22,991 bases of DNA from a virus, in IMG/VR virus record IMGVR_UViG_3300046028_000859, positions 1-22,991 of that record. The stretch is one strand, 5' to 3'. Under the pieces are notes generated by a model. It had not been told where the DNA came from. It was given only the letters and a program-made list of their open reading frames with translations, and made no database searches. How positions within the stretch are numbered: position 1 is the first letter of the stretch; each line of letters begins with the position of its first letter. Shown here one piece after another: positions 1 to 7,445 of the stretch. Made by a program: the position numbers and the translations under genes.

Positions 1-344
1 GCCGTATTTTGTGCTACCCCTATGCCAAACTGGAATCAGAGGGCGTCAGTTATGCCAAAGCGGCATGGAAGCCGGCGCAAGATGCAAAAGAATGGCCACG
101 CGCCCGTCTGTGGAAAGGCTTGGCATGTGAAAATGTAACGCAGGCAGTGGCCAACGATTTGCTTCGCCACGCCCTGCGCCAACTCGACGACGTTGTGCTG
201 CATGTGCATGATGAGATTGTATTAGAGACGGCGAACCTCAACGCCGCAGAAGAATTAAAACGTGTGATGTGTACAGCGCCAGCATGGGCAGACGGCCTGC
301 CTTTGAACGCTGAAGTAGAAACTATGAAAAGGTATGGCAAATGA
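1..344 (+). CDS. DNA polymerase, family A (C-terminal fragment)
   Basis: This is the C-terminal end of a replicative phage DNA polymerase of the Pol I (family A) type; the start lies left of the window and the frame is open from base 3. The visible part of about 113 residues carries the family's conserved helix ENVTQAVANDLLRHAL followed by polymerase motif C, read here as LHVHDEIVLE, whose HDE provides one of the two metal-binding aspartates. Motif A and any 3'-5' exonuclease domain would lie upstream and cannot be checked. The stop codon overlaps the start of the primase-helicase gene as ATGA (341-344), so the two are probably translationally coupled and form one replication operon. The family assignment is secure; the size and the subfamily are not known. 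Confidence 0.93.
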   Translation, partial: RILCYPYAKLESEGVSYAKAAWKPAQDAKEWPRARLWKGLACENVTQAVANDLLRHALRQLDDVVLHVHDEIVLETANLNAAEELKRVMCTAPAWADGLPLNAEVETMKRYGK

Positions 345-2629
345 ACTTTCTTGATTTTTTAATTTCTTTGGCGCCAGAGGGTGAGACTGCGCTGATCGTG
401 CGTCAAAAGCCCATTGGCAAAGAACTGCAATTCCACGCAGATGGTGCGATCAAATGCACATGGCCGGCTATGTTGCCTACCGCACGCATTAAAGACGACT
501 GGGCGATCTACGGCAACACGGCCAGTTTTATCATCGACCGCTTTAAAGACGGCCACGTCAGCGCCAGCGCGGTTAACTGTGAGTATGTGCTGGTCATGGT
601 GCTAGATGACGTGGGCACGAAGGCGGCCATCCCGCCACTTGAGCCTACATGGAAGATCGAGACGTCTGAGGGGTCATTCCAGTGGGGCTACGCGTTCTCA
701 GAGCAGCCCACAAAGGCCGACTTCAGCGCGGCCATCAAAGCCATTGCCGACGCGGGTTACACCGACAAGGGCGCCATTAACGCCGTGCGCAATTTCCGCT
801 TGCCTGGTTCGATCAACTTGAAACCAGACCGCAACAACTTCGCCGCCAAGCTGGTAGAGTTTCACCCAGCGCGTGACTTTACATTGGACCAAATTTGTGA
901 CGCGCTTGGCGTAGTGCCCGCGCCTGCTGACTCTGTTGGGTTCAAGCCGATCCGCTTGTCAGATGACGGCGCCGACGATGTAATGGCGTGGCTTAGTGGC
1001 CAGGGCCTGCTACTGTCTAAACCCAATCAAGAAGGCTGGGCCGGCGTGATGTGCCCCAATTCAGCCGAGCATACCGACGGCAACCCTGAAGGCCGTTACA
1101 TGCCCGCCAACCGCGCTTACTGCTGCCTGCACAGTCATTGCGTTGAATACGGCTCTAGCGCGTTTCTGGAGTGGGTGTCAGAGAACGGCGGCCCCAAGCA
1201 CGCCCCTGGCTTACGTGATGAACTGCTGACCTTGGCCATGGATCAAGCCCTGTCCAAGATCAAGCCAACCGAAGCATTCCCCGACGCGGCGGCGGCCATC
1301 ATCGCCGAGGTCGAGCGCAAAGAACTGGGCCGCGTTGAGAAGGCGCAGTGGTATGAGCGCTTCGCCTATATTCAGGACGACGAGTCCTATTTTGATATGC
1401 AAGACCGCCGTGAGGTGTCGCGCAGCACTTTCAACGCTCTGTTTCGTCACATATCTTGCAATTCGATCCATGGCAAGCGCCCTAAGGTCGAGGCGTCAAT
1501 TTGCTTTGATGAGAACCGCCAAAAGCATGGCGCCAAGGCGCTTGTGGGCATCACTTACGCCGCCGGCGAATCGGTCATTGTGGCCCGTGATGGTGACCTG
1601 TACGGCAACCGCTGGCGCGATGCTCGGCCCCCAGTGGCCGCCGGTGACATTGGCTTGTGGATGGATCATTGCAAAACGCTTGTGCCTGATCAGCGCGAAC
1701 TTGATCACATTTTGAACGTGATGGCCTTTAAAATTCAATTTCCCGGCATCAAGATCAATCATGCCGTGCTGCATGGCGGCGACCAGGGGTCTGGAAAAGA
1801 CACCATGTGGGCGCCGTTCATTTGGGCCGTTTGTGGCCCCCACCTTAAAAACCGTGGCCTGCTAGACAATGACACCATGAGCAGCCAATTTGGCTATGCC
1901 CTGGAATCTGAAATTTTAATTTTGAATGAGTTGAAAGAACCGGACGCCAAAGAGCGCCGAGCGCTGGCCAACAAATTAAAGCCGATCATCGCCGCGCCGC
2001 CTGAAATGCTGACAGTGAACCGCAAGGGCCTGCACCCTTACCAGATGGCGAACCGCGTGTTCGTGCTGGCGTTTTCCAATGACCCCGTGCCGATTAGCTT
2101 AGATTCTCAGGATCGCCGCTGGATGTGCGTCTGGTCGCACGCCCCGCGTATGACCGTCGACGCTGCCACCAAAATGTGGGCATGGTACAAAGCCGGAGGG
2201 TTTGCGGCCGTGGGCGCCTGGCTGCATGCCCGCGACGTCTCCGCGTTTAACCCTGGCGCTGCGCCCATGATGACCGAGTTTAAATTGAACTTGGTCGAGC
2301 ATGGCATGAGCATGGCCGAATCGTATTTGGTGGAACTTATGCGCGGGCGCCTGGGCGAATTTTCAAAAGGCGTGGTGGCGTCTCCCTTCCATGCATTGTG
2401 TGACCGCGTGGCTGGCGCCGCTCCGGCCGGTGTGAAGGTTCCCCAGCCGGCCCTTCTGCATGCGCTTAAAGAGGCTGGCTGGGTCGATCTTGGCCGCGTC
2501 GCGTCGGGTGACTTTCAAAGTAAAAAACACATGTTTTGTGCGCCAGAGATGGCCGGCCGGCCTAAATCAGAATTGCGCCGCATGGTCGAGGATATACCGG
2601 CGCCCCTGGCCGTGCGCTTGGTGAAGTAA
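341..2629 (+). CDS. Primase-helicase (AEP-type primase fused to D5/DUF5906-like helicase)
   Basis: A 762-residue protein that probably both primes and unwinds DNA for phage replication. The N-terminal part (about 1-190) has a VLVMVLDDVGTK segment (DD at 89-90) like the acidic catalytic motif of archaeo-eukaryotic-type (RepB/PrimPol-like) primases. Next comes a zinc-binding-like stretch with C238, H244, C261/C262, H264 and C267. The C-terminal part is a superfamily 3-like helicase: Walker A GGDQGSGKDT (479-488), Walker B EILILNE (524-530), a polar AFSN strand (577-580) and the DRRW signature (591-594) shared by D5 and DUF5906 helicases. The residue after the Walker A lysine is Asp, not the usual Ser/Thr. 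The ATG overlaps the polymerase stop. The gene ends just before a convergent terminator for the leftward operon. The helicase call is strong; primase activity is inferred from weaker motifs. Confidence 0.9.
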   Translation: MNFLDFLISLAPEGETALIVRQKPIGKELQFHADGAIKCTWPAMLPTARIKDDWAIYGNTASFIIDRFKDGHVSASAVNCEYVLVMVLDDVGTKAAIPPLEPTWKIETSEGSFQWGYAFSEQPTKADFSAAIKAIADAGYTDKGAINAVRNFRLPGSINLKPDRNNFAAKLVEFHPARDFTLDQICDALGVVPAPADSVGFKPIRLSDDGADDVMAWLSGQGLLLSKPNQEGWAGVMCPNSAEHTDGNPEGRYMPANRAYCCLHSHCVEYGSSAFLEWVSENGGPKHAPGLRDELLTLAMDQALSKIKPTEAFPDAAAAIIAEVERKELGRVEKAQWYERFAYIQDDESYFDMQDRREVSRSTFNALFRHISCNSIHGKRPKVEASICFDENRQKHGAKALVGITYAAGESVIVARDGDLYGNRWRDARPPVAAGDIGLWMDHCKTLVPDQRELDHILNVMAFKIQFPGIKINHAVLHGGDQGSGKDTMWAPFIWAVCGPHLKNRGLLDNDTMSSQFGYALESEILILNELKEPDAKERRALANKLKPIIAAPPEMLTVNRKGLHPYQMANRVFVLAFSNDPVPISLDSQDRRWMCVWSHAPRMTVDAATKMWAWYKAGGFAAVGAWLHARDVSAFNPGAAPMMTEFKLNLVEHGMSMAESYLVELMRGRLGEFSKGVVASPFHALCDRVAGAAPAGVKVPQPALLHALKEAGWVDLGRVASGDFQSKKHMFCAPEMAGRPKSELRRMVEDIPAPLAVRLVK

Positions 2630-2673: not shown

Positions 2674-2733
2674 CTACAGATCTAGCAGAATGATCAGTAG
2701 CCCAGCCAGTATAAGGGCGATTAGTAAAACCAT
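2674..2733 (-). CDS. Tiny hydrophobic membrane peptide (19 aa)
   Basis: A 19-codon frame, MVLLIALILAGLLIILLDL, is the last gene of the leftward operon. Almost the whole peptide is one hydrophobic helix ending in a single Asp, so it would sit in the inner membrane. Its ATG shares a base with the stop of the 71-codon gene upstream (TGATG at 2735-2731), the classic layout for translational re-initiation, and an intrinsic terminator follows 17 bases after its stop. That placement, more than its length, argues that it is a real gene. Its function is unknown. Pinholin-like or membrane-sensing roles are possible but unsupported, and there is no signal peptide or lipobox. Confidence 0.6.
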   Translation of the reverse strand: MVLLIALILAGLLIILLDL

Positions 2734-2948
2734 CAATAAGCGCTCCGCATCGCTTCCATGGCCCCGCTTTGCATAAGCCGGCGCGCTTCGGGGCCTTCAG
2801 CCAGGGCCATTTTGTATTCATGCTCTGACACTTGGCCGCGCTCATACCTAAACCCAAGATCAACGTAATAATGGTCGGCATACGTGAGCGGCGCCCACGG
2901 CGCGATTATTTCCCGCATGAGCGGGTGTAGATTATCCTTCGTTTTCAT
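2733..2948 (-). CDS. Unknown small phage protein (71 aa)
   Basis: I do not recognise this 71-residue protein. It starts with MKTKDNLHPLMREII, has an aromatic segment (YADHYYVDLGFRYERG) and ends in an alpha-helical, Glu/Ala/Met-rich tail. No membrane segment or cysteine is present. The ATG at 2948 lies inside the end of the preceding gene (17-bp overlap), and its stop overlaps the start of the 19-residue membrane peptide, so it is embedded in a chain of coupled genes. The position in a leftward, host-promoter-driven operon suggests an early accessory role, which is inference only. Confidence 0.75.
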   Translation of the reverse strand: MKTKDNLHPLMREIIAPWAPLTYADHYYVDLGFRYERGQVSEHEYKMALAEGPEARRLMQSGAMEAMRSAY

Positions 2949-3246
2949 ATGTATCGTCTCCGGTGTAATAGGTGGTCGGCGCTTCGTTTAGATTTTCATA
3001 GAAGCCGGTTAACGTGTTTTCGCCGCCGTACGGCGCGCCCCGGCCCTGGTGGCCCCGGCCACTGTTTAGCGCGTAATAGCGCGTCACATAGTCGGCCGTA
3101 GAATAAAAATAGTCAGGAAAATAACGGCGCTCCGGACCCTTACTTTTTACGGTCCTATGCTTACCGGTGCATTTTGCATGATCCGCAAAAATGTCACGGT
3201 CGTCGTTGATTTTGTAGGCCGTGCGGCCAATAGTCACGGTTTTCAT
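2932..3246 (-). CDS. Unknown Tyr-rich small phage protein (104 aa)
   Basis: A 104-residue protein of unknown function. The ATG at 3246 is chosen because it overlaps the stop of the preceding gene as ATGA; a TTG three codons further upstream would also be open but lacks that coupling. The N-terminus MKTVTIGRTAYKIND looks like a short beta hairpin and is followed by a basic segment (HAKCTGKHRTVKSKGPERR). The second half is rich in Tyr, Gly and Asn (YFPDYFYS, GRGHQGRGAPYGG, YYTGDDTYENEG) and is probably poorly ordered. Two tyrosine-rich clusters and an acidic C-terminus are its most distinctive features. No known domain is evident. Confidence 0.72.
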   Translation of the reverse strand: MKTVTIGRTAYKINDDRDIFADHAKCTGKHRTVKSKGPERRYFPDYFYSTADYVTRYYALNSGRGHQGRGAPYGGENTLTGFYENLNEAPTTYYTGDDTYENEG

Positions 3247-3458
3247 GAGTCCCAATCCTCAGTTGATAATTTAATATTACAAAAATCTTGGTGTTCGGTG
3301 TTGATGTGCTTGCGCATGAGCGCGCATATTGCATCAATCAATTTTCGGTCGACTAGGTCGTTGATTGTGAGAGTCGCGAACGGGTCCGCGTCTATGCCTT
3401 CTGGCGTAAAAGCATTACCCCGGTGAAAGGTCACCGTCGTTTTGTCATAATGGCTCAT
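3243..3458 (-). CDS. Unknown small phage protein (71 aa)
   Basis: The ATG at 3458 is preceded by AAAAGGAATCAA, a fair ribosome-binding site at normal spacing. A longer reading of the frame, back to 3563, lies on top of the preceding gene and is not needed. The 71-residue protein has a basic N-terminal strand (MSHYDKTTVTFHRGNAF), then a helical segment (LTINDLVDRKLIDAICALMRKH) and an acidic end (STEDWDS). The helix pair could be a small protein-binding or DNA-mimic-like unit, but nothing specific identifies it. The stop overlaps the start of the 104-residue gene (ATGA), which supports both genes. Confidence 0.75.
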   Translation of the reverse strand: MSHYDKTTVTFHRGNAFTPEGIDADPFATLTINDLVDRKLIDAICALMRKHINTEHQDFCNIKLSTEDWDS

Positions 3459-3468
3459 TTGATTCCTT

Positions 3469-3696
3469 TTAAATAGTGCAGCAGCCGCAGCACGGTGCGT
3501 CAATACACCGGCCGCGCGGGTTACGGTGGAAAACGGTCGGGCCATTGTCACCGTAAAAAACAACGCGAGAGTCGCCGGGTTCCTCGAGCCAGGCGCGGCG
3601 CGTTACGGTGTCAAATTTAATGTCATCGCCGGGGTTTATCCTGGCGCCGGACCGGCTACAGTGGCCGGGGTATTTTGCTCTCATGCTTTTTATCAT
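3469..3696 (-). CDS. Small Cys-rich protein, possible degenerate zinc ribbon (75 aa)
   Basis: The ATG at 3696 overlaps the stop of the preceding 219-residue gene as ATGA and has AAGG seven to eight bases upstream; a second ATG four codons in has a poorer site. The 75-residue protein contains YPGHCSRSGARINPGDDIKFD, which matches the shape of small phage zinc-ribbon-like proteins (CxxCG...I..G..I) except that Ser replaces the second cysteine. It ends in a dense cysteine patch (CIDAPCCGCCTI). The cysteines could bind a metal between the N-terminal Cys and the tail, but this is speculative. No function is assigned. Confidence 0.75.
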   Translation of the reverse strand: MIKSMRAKYPGHCSRSGARINPGDDIKFDTVTRRAWLEEPGDSRVVFYGDNGPTVFHRNPRGRCIDAPCCGCCTI

Positions 3697-4352
3697 GCTG
3701 CTAACCTTAAATTGATTGTGCGATGACGCGAACCGTGCGCCGGGAAACCTACAATAGCCGCGCGCTGGCGCTGGCAAAGCTGGCATGTCGCGCAGCTGAC
3801 GTCGTCGCGCTGGGTCGCTGGGCAAACGACGACCGGCCGGCCGGCTGGCGTTTTTAGGTTTTCGTTTTGCGTTGACGGTAGGACGACGACGACCGGGCCG
3901 GCGTTTTGATCGGCCAAATAATCGGCGTCATTTAAATCATTGGCCGATAAGTTGACAGTAAAACCCCAATTATTGGCATGCCGGATCCATGCAATGCTGG
4001 CGGCGTCGCGATGATGCGAATAAGTAAACCCGCGTTTACCGGTGTTCGCGGCCACCAATTCACCCAGCTTTGCGGCGTCAATTGTGCCGTTTTGCTGGGG
4101 TAGATCGCCGGCTTGGTTATGGCGCCAAATTTGATTGTCGGGTAAGCGCGCGATTGTCTCGCAAAATTCACCCCAGGACGTGCCGCGCGTTTTCATAGAT
4201 ACGGCGGCCCAGTGTAGCGCCAGTGGCCCGCTGGCTGCGTAGCATTCGGCCTTCATTTTGCAATCAGCCGGGCAACTGTTGCGCTCGGTCGTTGACACTG
4301 GAATTGGGCCGGTTTTGACGTTCGCGCTTTTTAGTGTTAAGTGTACGTGCAT
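3693..4352 (-). CDS. Conserved phage protein with two cysteine clusters (219 aa)
   Basis: The largest protein of the leftward operon. The ATG at 4352 is preferred because AAGGGG lies six bases upstream; the frame stays open to 4466, but that part overlaps another gene. An N-terminal cluster C27-x3-C31-x5-C37 followed by Tyr-Ala (CPADCKMKAECYA) is paired with a C-terminal cluster C177, C187, C190, C193 (VVCPAT...SCATCQLC). Between them lie alternating strand-helix segments with polar strand ends (IWRHNQAGDLP, FTYSHHRD, FTVNLSANDLNDADYLAD, VVVVLP). The ending VGFPAHGS is also distinctive. I have seen this protein type in other phages as a domain of unknown function (I believe DUF7227, from memory). 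The layout recalls a barrel holding a metal or Fe-S centre, as in Gp37/Gp68-type phage proteins, but that is inference. Confidence 0.85.
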   Translation of the reverse strand: MHVHLTLKSANVKTGPIPVSTTERNSCPADCKMKAECYAASGPLALHWAAVSMKTRGTSWGEFCETIARLPDNQIWRHNQAGDLPQQNGTIDAAKLGELVAANTGKRGFTYSHHRDAASIAWIRHANNWGFTVNLSANDLNDADYLADQNAGPVVVVLPSTQNENLKTPAGRPVVVCPATQRDDVSCATCQLCQRQRAAIVGFPAHGSRHRTINLRLAA

Positions 4353-4365
4353 GTTTTGCCCCTTG

Positions 4366-4536
4366 TTAACGTGATGCTGGCGCGCCGTTAGCGCGTGCGC
4401 GGGTGATTGCAATTTGAGCGGCGCGGTAAGATTTAAAAACGCGGCCGGGAAAAGTATTTGCGTCATCGGTCACATAGCATTCGGCGCGCGCAGCGCGGCC
4501 GTTGATGTACATGCCGTTATAGTATTTTGTAAACAT
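4366..4536 (-). CDS. Unknown small basic protein (56 aa)
   Basis: A 56-codon gene starting MFTKYYNGMYINGRAARAEC. The ATG at 4536 has AAAGGG six bases upstream, the best type of ribosome-binding site in this operon, and the gene fits exactly between the 32-residue membrane peptide and the 219-residue gene with gaps of 10 and 13 bases. The protein is basic overall, starts with an aromatic strand pair and ends in an Arg/Ala helix (SYRAAQIAITRARANGAPASR). The first half resembles short phage proteins with a YxNGxxIxGR beta hairpin. No function is assigned. Confidence 0.72.
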   Translation of the reverse strand: MFTKYYNGMYINGRAARAECYVTDDANTFPGRVFKSYRAAQIAITRARANGAPASR

Positions 4537-4546
4537 AGCCGGCCCT

Positions 4547-4645
4547 TTATTTAATTAAAACGTCAAAATACGCCAGGGCGCCGACAGTGAGCGCGGCCGC
4601 GATAACGGCGGCCGCCAGGATATCTAAAAATAATGCTTTTTTCAT
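4547..4645 (-). CDS. Small single-pass membrane peptide (32 aa)
   Basis: A 32-codon gene. Two lysines after the initiator Met are followed by a 25-residue apolar, Ala-rich span (ALFLDILAAAVIAAALTVGA and on) and a short FDVLIK tail, so the product is a one-helix inner-membrane peptide, probably with the N-terminus inside. AAAGG lies eight bases before the ATG, and the next gene's ribosome-binding site begins right after its stop. Codons and spacing match the neighbours. Its role is unknown; it could modify a host membrane complex, act in superinfection exclusion or assist lysis, but nothing in the sequence chooses among these. Confidence 0.68.
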   Translation of the reverse strand: MKKALFLDILAAAVIAAALTVGALAYFDVLIK

Positions 4646-4667
4646 GTTGTTTTGCCTTTATGTTATT

Positions 4668-4686
4668 GGCCGGTTTTGCGCCGGCC
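4668..4686 (-). other. GC-only hairpin between the first two leftward genes
   Basis: GGCCGG (4668-4673) and CCGGCC (4681-4686) form a perfect 6-bp GC stem around a 7-nt loop, in the 48-base gap between the 62-residue gene and the 32-residue membrane peptide. No T run follows on the minus strand, so this is not a standard terminator. It may stabilise or process the transcript. It may also be chance, because GGCCGG is common throughout this operon. Confidence 0.4.
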
Positions 4687-4693
4687 GGTTTAG

Positions 4694-4882
4694 TTAAACA
4701 ATAAATTCAGGATGATTTGTCACACCGAATGCCAGCGCATGAGCGCGCAACGCTTCGGCGCTTTTTTGGCTGCGAGCGCAGCGAATGAGCGCAGATATAG
4801 CGCGCGCCACATAGTCCGGACCTAAGCCGGCTGCGCGGTATTTTGTAATCAATTGCAATTCGCGAATTTCAGATTTAGTCAT
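4694..4882 (-). CDS. Unknown small helical protein, first gene of leftward operon (62 aa)
   Basis: The first gene after the leftward promoter. The ATG at 4882 has AAGGA five bases upstream; an upstream ATG at 4963 would start before the promoter's -10 and is rejected. The 62-residue protein, MTKSEIRELQLITKYRAAGL followed by GPDYVARAISALIRCARSQK, is helical and basic, with the look of a small helix-bundle or DNA-binding protein. The stretch up to GPDYVARAISALI could form a helix-turn-helix-like pair but has no convincing signature. First place in a promoter-proximal operon suits a regulator or a host-takeover factor (inference). Confidence 0.75.
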   Translation of the reverse strand: MTKSEIRELQLITKYRAAGLGPDYVARAISALIRCARSQKSAEALRAHALAFGVTNHPEFIV

Positions 4883-4931
4883 TTTGGTCCTTAGGTTAGT
4901 TGATACCGGCTTTTCGTTTGCCAGTGTAGCT

Positions 4932-4959
4932 ATTGTAAGGGAATTATTTACACTGTCAA
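4932..4959 (-). promoter_or_regulatory. Strong sigma70-type promoter of the leftward operon
   Basis: On the minus strand there is a perfect -35 box TTGACA (4954-4959), a 16-bp spacer and the -10 box TACAAT (4932-4937), five of six matches to TATAAT. Transcription should start near 4925 and leave a leader of about 40 bases before the ATG at 4882. A promoter this close to consensus would be read by host RNA polymerase on entry, so the operon is probably early. The first repeat units of the 4995-5363 array lie about 35 bases upstream of the -35. Confidence 0.85.
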
Positions 4960-5010
4960 GCATTTATTTGCAACTATGCAAAACTTGCATAATCTTGGGT
5001 CATTTGGGTC

Positions 5011-5050
5011 GCGCTTAGGTTATGCATTCGCGCTGCGATGACCTAAGCGC
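5011..5050. repeat. 10-bp inverted repeat with 20-bp spacer
   Basis: GCGCTTAGGT (5011-5020) and ACCTAAGCGC (5041-5050) are exact reverse complements. The arms contain variants of the array unit (TTAGGTTA and TGACCTAA) facing each other, so this may be a weaker operator or a hairpin. The spacer has no obvious structure. Confidence 0.6.
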
Positions 5051-5122
5051 CAGCGCCCGCCAATATTGGAAAGCATTGTGTTTTAGGTCATTTGGGTCAT
5101 TGTTTATAGATAACATCAATAA

Positions 5123-5141
5123 TTTATATACTGTATATAAA
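5123..5141. repeat. AT-rich 19-nt palindrome
   Basis: TTTATATAC-T-GTATATAAA is a perfect 9-bp dyad around one central T. It lies in the most AT-rich stretch of the region (5101-5152), flanked by paired repeat clusters on both sides. It could be an easily melted element of an origin or an operator overlapping a weak promoter. Confidence 0.55.
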
Positions 5142-5252
5142 GACAGTGTAACGCCATGTGGACAACTCTACCCGCGTCGATTTTTGCAGCGTGACAAAAT
5201 GACCCAAATGACCCAAAGCCGGGGAATTCCCTGGGCGCCAGATCTGCGCTTT

Positions 5253-5298
5253 TTGGGTCATTTGGGTCAACAAAAAACAAATGACCCAAATGACCCAA
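5253..5298. repeat. 17-bp perfect inverted repeat built from two array pairs
   Basis: The two-unit cluster at 5253-5269 and the two-unit cluster at 5282-5298 are exact reverse complements over 17 bp, separated by 12 bases that are nearly all A (ACAAAAAACAAA). In single-stranded form this would make a strong hairpin; in duplex DNA it offers four bound sites around an A-tract that may be bent. Confidence 0.7.
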
Positions 5299-5406
5299 TG
5301 ACAATGGCCACTGGCGCCAGCTTGCAATTTAAAACCGTGACCCAAATGACCCAAATGACCTAAGGCCGGCGGCCGGTCGCATTATGCAATGACCCTACAG
5401 CCAGAA

Positions 5407-5434
5407 GGGGTAGGGTAGGGCCGGCAGCATAGGG
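5407..5434 (+). other. G-rich tract, possible G-quadruplex
   Basis: Four runs of three or more G (5407-5410, 5413-5415, 5418-5420, 5432-5434) are separated by loops of 2, 2 and 11 bases (GGGGTAGGGTAGGG, then GGG). This fits a loose G-quadruplex pattern on the plus strand, about 80 bases before terS. It might mark a replication or packaging feature, or be incidental. Confidence 0.35.
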
Positions 5435-5450
5435 CCGACAAAAACGTACC

Positions 5451-5460
5451 GTTCGCGAAC
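5451..5460. promoter_or_regulatory. 10-bp palindrome GTTCGCGAAC before terS
   Basis: A perfect palindrome followed by an AT-rich run (AATTTTTATTTTTTGTTG) about 55 bases before the terS start. It has the form of a dimeric regulator site at a late promoter, but no matching -35/-10 pair is convincing, so it is listed as a candidate only. Confidence 0.35.
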
Positions 5461-5515
5461 AATTTTTATTTTTTGTTGTAAACTAAAGGCTACGTGCAAC
5501 CAGCATGGAGAGCCT

Positions 5516-5944
5516 ATGTTCTATTCAATCCCATTCACACCGCGCAATGTGCAGGCGACAGAGTCGCGTTTAAAGGCGGTGTATGACGCTGCCAAACTTG
5601 GCCTCAAAGGCGATACGCTGGCCTTGGCCGCCGGCATGCTCCCCACCGAATACCGACAACTTACGCAACTTGATCCTGTTGTGGAGATGGCTGCGCAAAA
5701 AGGCAAAGCCGACGCTGAGATAGAGATGGCCAACATTGTCAGAGCCGCCGCGCTAGACGGCGACGCTAAGATGGCGTTAGAAGTTTTGAAGCACCAGCAC
5801 GGCTGGGTGGCCAAGCAAGCCATATCTGTCGAGGTCGACCAGCGCATATCCATCACTGGCGCACTGGCCGAGGCAGCTAAAAGGCTAGATGTGATTGACG
5901 TACAGGCCAAGGAGCAAAATGCAATCGACCATATACAGCGCTGA
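5516..5944 (+). CDS. terS: Terminase small subunit (probable)
   Basis: A 142-residue protein directly before and overlapping the large terminase, close in length to P22 gp3 (162). The N-terminal half (AAKLGLKGDTLALAAGMLPT) looks like a helix-turn-helix for recognising the packaging site. The second half is helical, with a pattern common in phage small terminases (KGKADAEIE, ALDGDAKMALEVLKHQHGW), usually the oligomerising core. GGAG lies about five bases before the ATG at 5516. The role would be to recognise viral DNA, form a ring and load the large subunit. The assignment rests on position and pattern more than on a strict motif. Confidence 0.82.
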   Translation: MFYSIPFTPRNVQATESRLKAVYDAAKLGLKGDTLALAAGMLPTEYRQLTQLDPVVEMAAQKGKADAEIEMANIVRAAALDGDAKMALEVLKHQHGWVAKQAISVEVDQRISITGALAEAAKRLDVIDVQAKEQNAIDHIQR

Positions 5945-7445
5945 AGACGAACAGGAGTTGATGGCACGCCTATGGGCGCCAGCCATCAAGGACAACCCAC
6001 TGGCGTTTGTAATGTTTGCGTTTCCTTGGGGTCAGGCAGGCACACCGTTGGAACACTTCACTGGCCCGCGCAAGTGGCAGCGTGAAGTCTTACAGCAGAT
6101 CACAGACCACATCAAACAGAACAACGGCAAACTGGATTACGACACCCTGAGAAGCGCCGTCAGTAGCGGGCGCGGTATTGGTAAGTCGGCCCTAGTCTCA
6201 TGGATCACGATTTGGATGTTGTCCACGCGGATTGGCTCGACGACCATCATCTCGGCCAACAGTGAATCTCAATTAAGGTCAGTCACTTGGGCCGAGATAA
6301 CCAAGTGGCTAGCGATGGCGCTTAACAGCCACTGGTTTGAGGTGTCAGCCACCAGGCTGATGCCGGCCAAGTGGCTCACGGAATTGGTCGAGCGTGATCT
6401 TAAGAAGGGCACGCGCTACTGGGGCGTCGAGGGACGGCTGTGGTCAGCGGAGAATCCTGATGCTTATGCGGGTGTCCACAACTTCGACGGTGTGCTGGTG
6501 GTGTTTGACGAAGCGTCTGGTATTGACGACAGCATTTGGGCGGTCACATCTGGATTCTTCACAGAGAACACGCCCAACAGGTTCTGGATGGCGTTCTCTA
6601 ACCCACGGCGCAACACTGGGTACTTTTACGAAGCGTTTAACAGCAAACGGGAGTTCTGGTCGACCAAGGTGGTAGACGCCCGCACGGTCGAGGGTACAGA
6701 CAAACAGGTGTACCAGCAGATCATTGACGAGTATGGCCCAGACTCAGCGCAAGCGCACGTCGAGGTGTATGGTCAGTTCCCGTCTGAAGGTGACGATCAG
6801 TTTATATCGGCTTTGCTTGTGGACGACGCGATGAAAAGGCCGGCGTATAAAGACCTATCCGCGCCAATTGTCATCGGTGTCGACCCGGCACGGTTTGGCG
6901 CTGACGCAACGGTCATTGCAGTGCGCCAAGGACGGGACATAGTCAGCATCCGGCGCCACCGGGGCGACGACACCATGACTGTAGTGGGGCATGTGATTGA
7001 CGTCATAGAAGAATACAAGCCAACTTTAGTCGTGATCGACGAAGGCGGGTTAGGAGCCGGCATTGTCGACCGTTTGAAAGAGCAGCGCTACAAGGTCAAG
7101 GGCATCAACTTTGGTACTAAGTCTAAGAATCCCATTATGTATGGCAACAAAAGAGCCGAAATGTGGGGTGCAATGAAAGATTGGCTCAAAGGGGCGTCGA
7201 TTCCGCTTGACAGATTTCTTAAAACTGATCTAATTTCGCCTATGATGAAGCCCGACTCTAAGGGTACAATCTTCTTAGAGTCGAAAAAAGACATGAAAGC
7301 GCGGGGCTTGGCCTCACCAGACGCGGCAGACGCGATCTGTGTGACGTTTGCATACCCTGTGGCCCACCGTGAGGCGCGTGAACCCACGCAGCGCCGCATG
7401 TATTCAGATCGAAGCGTGGTTGCAACTTCTTGGATGGGTAGCTAA
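5919..7445 (+). CDS. terL: Terminase large subunit (packaging ATPase-nuclease)
   Basis: The DNA-packaging motor, which cuts concatemers and pumps DNA through the portal. The ATG at 5919 is chosen because AAGGAG lies four bases upstream; an in-frame TTG at 5895 is a weaker choice. The product is 508 residues (P22 gp2: 499). The ATPase domain has Walker A SGRGIGKS (83-90) and Walker B VVFDEA (194-199, with the catalytic Glu). The RNase H-like nuclease has IGVDPARFGAD (Asp322), VVIDEGG (Asp374) and SPDAADA (Asp468, Asp471). The gene overlaps terS by 26 bases. The P22 gene order downstream suggests headful packaging, which is inference. Confidence 0.96.
   Translation: MQSTIYSAEDEQELMARLWAPAIKDNPLAFVMFAFPWGQAGTPLEHFTGPRKWQREVLQQITDHIKQNNGKLDYDTLRSAVSSGRGIGKSALVSWITIWMLSTRIGSTTIISANSESQLRSVTWAEITKWLAMALNSHWFEVSATRLMPAKWLTELVERDLKKGTRYWGVEGRLWSAENPDAYAGVHNFDGVLVVFDEASGIDDSIWAVTSGFFTENTPNRFWMAFSNPRRNTGYFYEAFNSKREFWSTKVVDARTVEGTDKQVYQQIIDEYGPDSAQAHVEVYGQFPSEGDDQFISALLVDDAMKRPAYKDLSAPIVIGVDPARFGADATVIAVRQGRDIVSIRRHRGDDTMTVVGHVIDVIEEYKPTLVVIDEGGLGAGIVDRLKEQRYKVKGINFGTKSKNPIMYGNKRAEMWGAMKDWLKGASIPLDRFLKTDLISPMMKPDSKGTIFLESKKDMKARGLASPDAADAICVTFAYPVAHREAREPTQRRMYSDRSVVATSWMGS

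Follow-up and report, generated by a model that had tools for sequence, protein, structure and literature searches.

The stretch of DNA analysed here (the window) is a linear virus fragment of 22,991 bases, IMG/VR record IMGVR_UViG_3300046028_000859. A DNA polymerase gene precedes a rightward gene encoding a primase-helicase, which is convergent with a leftward operon of small genes; beyond the promoter of this operon lie the terminase genes. The relevant genes and signals are:

341..2629 (+): primase-helicase with a DUF5906 SF3 helicase (Pfam PF19263, E 1.8e-12; PHROG DNA primase)
2733..4963 (-): leftward operon of small genes, one for a DUF7227 protein, the others without assignment
4959-4932 (-): leftward sigma70-type promoter TTGACA-16-TACAAT, 11 of 12 consensus positions
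5516..5944 (+): terS, small terminase subunit, assigned from its position beside terL
5919..7445 (+): terL, large terminase subunit

The DUF7227 protein of the leftward operon (3693-4466, minus strand) gives a strong Pfam match (1.3e-80).

Between the leftward promoter and terS is an array (4995-5363) of short iterons, which read TTGGGTCA or TGACCCAA depending on the strand, with 10 exact and four one-mismatch copies within 370 bp. The exact units lie at 4995(+), 5092(+), 5200(-), 5209(-), 5253(+), 5262(+), 5282(-), 5291(-), 5338(-) and 5347(-), and the one-mismatch units at 5004(+), 5039(-), 5083(+) and 5356(-); a fifteenth one-mismatch copy, TAGGGTCA, is found at 5390. Order-2 Markov simulations yielded on average 1.4 and at most 2 exact copies per 370 bp as against the 10 observed, and across the whole window there are 40 matches with at most one mismatch versus 20.8 +/- 4.5 in shuffled sequences, none of 100 shuffles having reached 40. 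These positions and simulations bear out the original prediction of ten exact and four one-mismatch copies in about 370 bases. The pairs and the triple with a 9-bp step in both orientations that it described are likewise present, the unit at 5039 being the sole exception, and the sigma70 promoter and packaging genes which it placed to the left and right are those listed above. The array can be divided into seven clusters and a spacer:

4995..5011 (+): cluster A, left-most iteron pair (one exact, one with one mismatch), position conserved in relatives
5039..5046 (-): cluster B, single iteron TTAGGTCA
5083..5099 (+): cluster C, right-pointing iteron pair bordering the AT-rich spacer
5100..5199: C-D spacer, its first ~60 bp (5100-5159) AT-rich, candidate DNA unwinding element
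5131..5146: LexA-type CTG-N10-CAG box CTGTATATAAAGACAG within the spacer
5200..5216 (-): cluster D, left-pointing iteron pair bordering the spacer
5253..5269 (+): cluster E, iteron pair
5282..5298 (-): cluster F, iteron pair, inverted relative to E
5338..5363 (-): cluster G, iteron triple, the third unit being TTAGGTCA

The 113-amino-acid ORF that spans the repeats (5022-5363) is probably spurious, a product of the stop-free 9-bp repeat. Searches of an annotated phage collection gave no meaningful near or distant DNA match to the array, and no cultured relative emerged.

Conserved geometry and diverse units in related phages

A scan with the 17-mer pair, whose counts are lower bounds, recovered at least 119 viral stretches, among which single-copy matches lacking phage genes look like chance occurrences. 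Arrays with four TTGGGTCA units or more are present in at least 86 loci (85 and the window), and among these the cluster order A>> B< C>> D<< E>> F<< G<<<, together with the distances, recurs almost exactly. Wherever a contig extends far enough, the array lies directly upstream of terS, and the TerS proteins of the array loci are ~54 to 100 percent identical to that of the window. All these loci are metagenomic contigs with some redundancy among them. Assemblies of the relatives measure 36-40 kb and contain one iteron array each; the ends of several overlap in the way seen in circular assemblies. Two contigs with relatives of the primase (L288 and L289) were binned to a Rhodoferax MAG, a weak hint of a Comamonadaceae host.

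Alignment searches with the primase and terS recovered several hundred relatives, of which the best 80 per scan were kept. Among these, 120 of the 216 loci having enough upstream sequence contain at least four TTGGGTCA-type units, and most of the remainder have a similar array at the same place built from a different unit, such as GTGGACAA, GTGAGTCA, GTGGGTCA, ATGGGTCA, ATTGGCAA, GTTGGCTA, GTGGGCTA, GTAGGCAA, GTTAGTCA and others. The more than 20 different units share the frame NTNRRYNA(T) and retain the 9-bp step: a unit in the frame NTNRRYNA is repeated at least three times in 206 of the 216 loci versus 25 when the sequence is reversed. Whatever the unit, a step of 9 is by far the commonest, being seen in 71 of 100 non-redundant loci (at least two exact 8-mer pairs), while none of the other steps between 5 and 30 occurs in more than 20. 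Conservation of both unit and step in relatives had been proposed as a check capable of refuting the original prediction; the step and the geometry are indeed kept in well over 100 loci, but the sequence of the unit is not fixed and diversifies with the C-terminus of the primase-helicase.

The units are oriented toward the AT-rich spacer from both sides, with 308 '>' and 59 '<' units on its left and 142 '>' and 605 '<' units on its right. The first 60 bp of the spacer are on average 73% AT across 88 loci versus 51% for the 1-kb region. A CTG-N10-CAG box is present in 32 of these 88 spacers versus 1.0 in shuffles, and host SOS control of the origin proposed below, or of a promoter inside the spacer, is possible. 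The spacers of other loci contain palindromes such as AGGGTATACCCT or GGGTTAATACC instead of the LexA-type box.

Two phages have palindromic repeats in the equivalent position. In phage DSL-LC05 (OR003940) the palindrome TGACCCAGTGGGTCA occurs about eight times upstream of terS (33440-33975), one copy lying exactly within the spacer of a TTGACA/TAGAAT promoter; the half-site is as in the window, the arrangement is different, and its TerS shows no match to that of the window. In MW202483 an array of the palindrome GTTTAYGTAAAC (28200-28600) occupies the equivalent place, and the C-terminus of the primase is divergent.

Covariation of the unit with the primase-helicase

We matched pairs of loci on identity over primase residues 1-400 and compared those sharing a unit class with those of different classes. 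Between classes the identity of primase residues 400-740 falls by as much as 0.24; for the most divergent bin the drop lies mainly in residues 660-740 (0.10). TerL, portal, polA and SSB, like TerS, display no between-class drop in the matched pairs. Partial Mantel tests reached their maximum at primase residues 691-762 (r 0.38) and gave r 0.03 (p 0.19) for TerS, the p-values of such covariation tests depending on the classes chosen. As terS lies nearer to the array than the primase gene does, simple linkage predicts the opposite of this pattern.

The co-varying region coincides with a discrete domain in an AF2 model of residues 400-762, which was computed with 45 rows and shows the SF3 helicase followed by a C-terminal winged helix (mean pLDDT 80, about 87-93 in the wing region). 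The strands 715-720 and 729-733 enclose the loop 721-728 carrying the co-varying residues, which identifies this loop as the tip of the wing:

2303..2626 (+): codons for residues 655-762, the C-terminal winged-helix domain proposed to read the iterons (AF2 model and covariation)
2501..2524 (+): codons of the wing-tip loop, residues 721-728 (ASGDFQSK), with residue 723 at 2507-2509

The best PDB matches of the model are the C-terminal region of the NrS-1 polymerase (6k9c, Z 23) and SaPI5 PriRep1 (Z 17), and similarity to NrS-1 is also detectable in the window primase-helicase sequence (E 1.6e-10). The protein has both the DUF5906 helicase domain and the fold of the NrS-1 C-terminal region, as expected of an NrS-1 polymerase-like protein.

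Across all primase columns and unit positions the strongest association is between residue 723 and position 1 of the unit. In non-redundant loci Arg723 accompanies 20 of 20 units beginning with G, none of 16 beginning with T and one of 7 beginning with A (Fisher 2.6e-10). Over 141 scorable loci it is present with all 53 G-units and absent from 68 of the 70 TTGGGTCA loci, the two remaining ones being a single 4.6-kb contig seen twice (L009=L220) with a KSRAHT wing. A prediction fixed beforehand for loci from two new scans found Arg723 with 38 of 38 G-units. Of seven non-G calls obtained from these loci, four agree with the rule, two appear to be hairpin repeats called in error, and L364 is a genuine exception; 34 of the 79 new loci were unscorable, mostly for want of a unit repeated four times. 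The combinations ATGGACAA/KSREFD and ATTGACTA/TSREFP violate the position-1 rule, and a KSSLHD wing found with ATGGACAA represents a point-like change that fits direct reading.

A tree of the primase N-terminus implies at least 54 changes of the unit and at least 18 of its first base. Among 13 independent pairs drawn from this tree Arg723 follows the base in 11-12 and opposes it in none (p 0.0005), while Asp726 and Lys721 follow GGACAA-type units (median p 0.004 and 0.008, respectively), and the matching of residue to base recurs in distant backgrounds. Across hundreds of related freshwater phages the unit and the protein predicted to read it change together, in a manner suggestive of a simple base-to-amino-acid rule.

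The position of the array between divergent operons, beside a strong leftward promoter, could also be explained by a transcription switch, with a phage regulator encoded in the leftward operon occupying the units to control both operons. The LexA-type boxes in the spacer and the related palindrome TGACCCAGTGGGT between the -35 and -10 elements at the equivalent place in DSL-LC05 would fit such a switch, and this repeat inside a promoter leaves room for a regulatory role besides origin function. However, the window units do not overlie the conserved promoter hexamers, the unit co-varies with the C-terminus of the primase, and, among the gene families of the leftward operon, none occurs in more than 49 of 100 array loci. 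As no such family is present in all array phages, the small leftward proteins that had been put forward as possible binders find no support, and we consider a switch of this kind very unlikely as the primary function of the array. It is improbable to a greater degree still that the true partner is another gene travelling with the 3' end of the primase gene as a linked block, which would render the covariation of the wing incidental. The small gene abutting that end (2733-2948) is itself class-dependent (84 versus 67% identity), so that part of the signal reflects linked exchange; nevertheless, it was found in only 45 of 100 loci, and the genes from there to the array differ little between classes (71/67 and 74/72). 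The recurrence of the residue-to-base matching in distant backgrounds and in the 13 independent pairs, as well as point-like changes such as KSSLHD, likewise argue against such a partner.

Repeated sites near terminase genes are known from lambda cosB and P1 pac, and the invariable location of the arrays directly upstream of terS might accordingly be taken to indicate a packaging site (pac or cosB) recognised by TerS. This we regard as extremely unlikely, since TerS shows a between-class difference of at most about 0.02 besides its negligible Mantel correlation, loci with 98% identical TerS carry different units, and MW202483 has a different array despite a TerS 62% identical to that of the window; TerS was thus rejected as the binder.

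A candidate replication origin and its proposed initiator

Based on these observations we propose that the array is very probably the replication origin of the phage, with its iterons bound by the C-terminal winged helix of the primase-helicase and the bases read by the wing-tip loop. An origin recognised by the primase-helicase had been one of several options in the original prediction, and the evidence singles out this one. The locus displays several features of an iteron origin served by an SF3 primase-helicase, namely clustered short repeats, an SF3 domain with a C-terminal winged helix and an AT-rich element flanked by iterons. Cumulative GC skew, which had been suggested as a means of mapping the origin, has no turn at the array and none that is useful anywhere, and neither supports nor refutes this proposal.

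We infer that the 8/9-bp iterons would be bound as double-stranded DNA, with residues 721-728 contacting base pairs of each iteron and Arg723 going with G at position 1. The iteron pairs spaced by 9 bp on either side of the spacer would load two opposed rings of the SF3 helicase, the AT-rich stretch 5100-5159 would melt, and the N-terminal primase would start synthesis as the origin fires. The unit changes very often within this family, and wing and iteron change jointly, through point changes as well as through exchange of the C-terminal half of the primase. Our best reading is that the protein, a member of the NrS-1 polymerase structural family, would operate in a mode like that of P4 alpha or SaPI Rep.

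The iterons of P4 are 8 bp long and occur in both orientations, and to our knowledge dozens of iteron alleles have not been described there. P4 replication additionally needs a second site, crr, whereas no second, crr-like iteron cluster was seen in the complete genomes of the relatives. P4 alpha resembles the window protein in being a phage-encoded primase-helicase with a C-terminal winged helix, which binds the origin repeats in P4 (PMC4234260, PMC10516667) and is predicted here. The P4 alpha primase is of the Toprim type (PMC4234260), unlike the DUF5906/NrS-1-like helicase with 9-bp-step iteron pairs found here. In SaPI Rep too a C-terminal domain binds the origin iterons, apparently as two hexamers, and this protein, SaPI5 PriRep1 and SCCmec Cch2 share with our proposal an SF3-type self-loading initiator helicase with an iteron-binding C-terminal domain (PMC7581432). 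The origin of those elements is directly downstream of the helicase gene, whereas here, in podovirus-like genomes, 2.4 kb including a convergent operon separate the primase stop codon from the array, which adjoins terS.

The NrS-1 polymerase, although the closest in fold, uses its 8-nt site TTTGGTTA differently. Two inverted copies in mid-genome form the proposed origin (PMC7102993, PMC8718748), and the site serves as the template sequence recognised in primer synthesis, the N-terminal fragment N300 acting on it, whereas the units described here form large arrays and co-vary with the C-terminal wing. TTTGGTTA happens to fit NTNRRYNA, for which a given 8-mer has a chance of about 1 in 128 on one strand, and as a lead this raises the possibility that the iterons double as priming sites. 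Joint change of iteron and initiator is reminiscent of the PLE of Vibrio cholerae, in which the DNA-binding domain of RepA and the origin iterons co-vary and were swapped together more than once (PMC8263062). That system differs in its unrelated initiator family (RepA_N), in having two replicon types only, and in the origin-directed nuclease Odn as the likely selective force; a search of the phages studied here for an origin-directed nuclease or any other free-standing protein bearing the wing found none.

We see about even chances for a broader proposal, according to which these phages would possess dozens of non-interchangeable origin-initiator pairs on one scaffold. Six rapidly changing iteron positions would be matched by four or five wing-tip residues through a partly modular code (Arg723 with G1; Lys721 and Asp726 with GGACAA-type units), selection would probably come from origin-directed attack or replicon competition, and the iteron might also serve as the priming site of the primase. 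Such orthogonal pairs, if real, would make useful replicons. Change at this pace suggests that phage origins are the site of an arms race or of competition between replicons, and the hundreds of paired iteron and wing sequences constitute a natural experiment from which the DNA recognition code of winged-helix wings might be derived. More generally, these results point to the origin and the initiator in a large group of freshwater phages that are uncultivated.

The region directly upstream of terS contains further sequence elements. In four loci (L343, L345, L266 and L271) hairpins of GTTAGTGGCCACTAAC / CTAACTTA form a second repeat family adjoining the iteron array. A G-rich stretch, GGGGGTAGGGCCGGCGGCANAGGGCC, followed by a run of T (5400-5500 in the window) is conserved in most loci and in MW202483; it is retained even where the array differs and is a candidate cos/pac or late promoter element.
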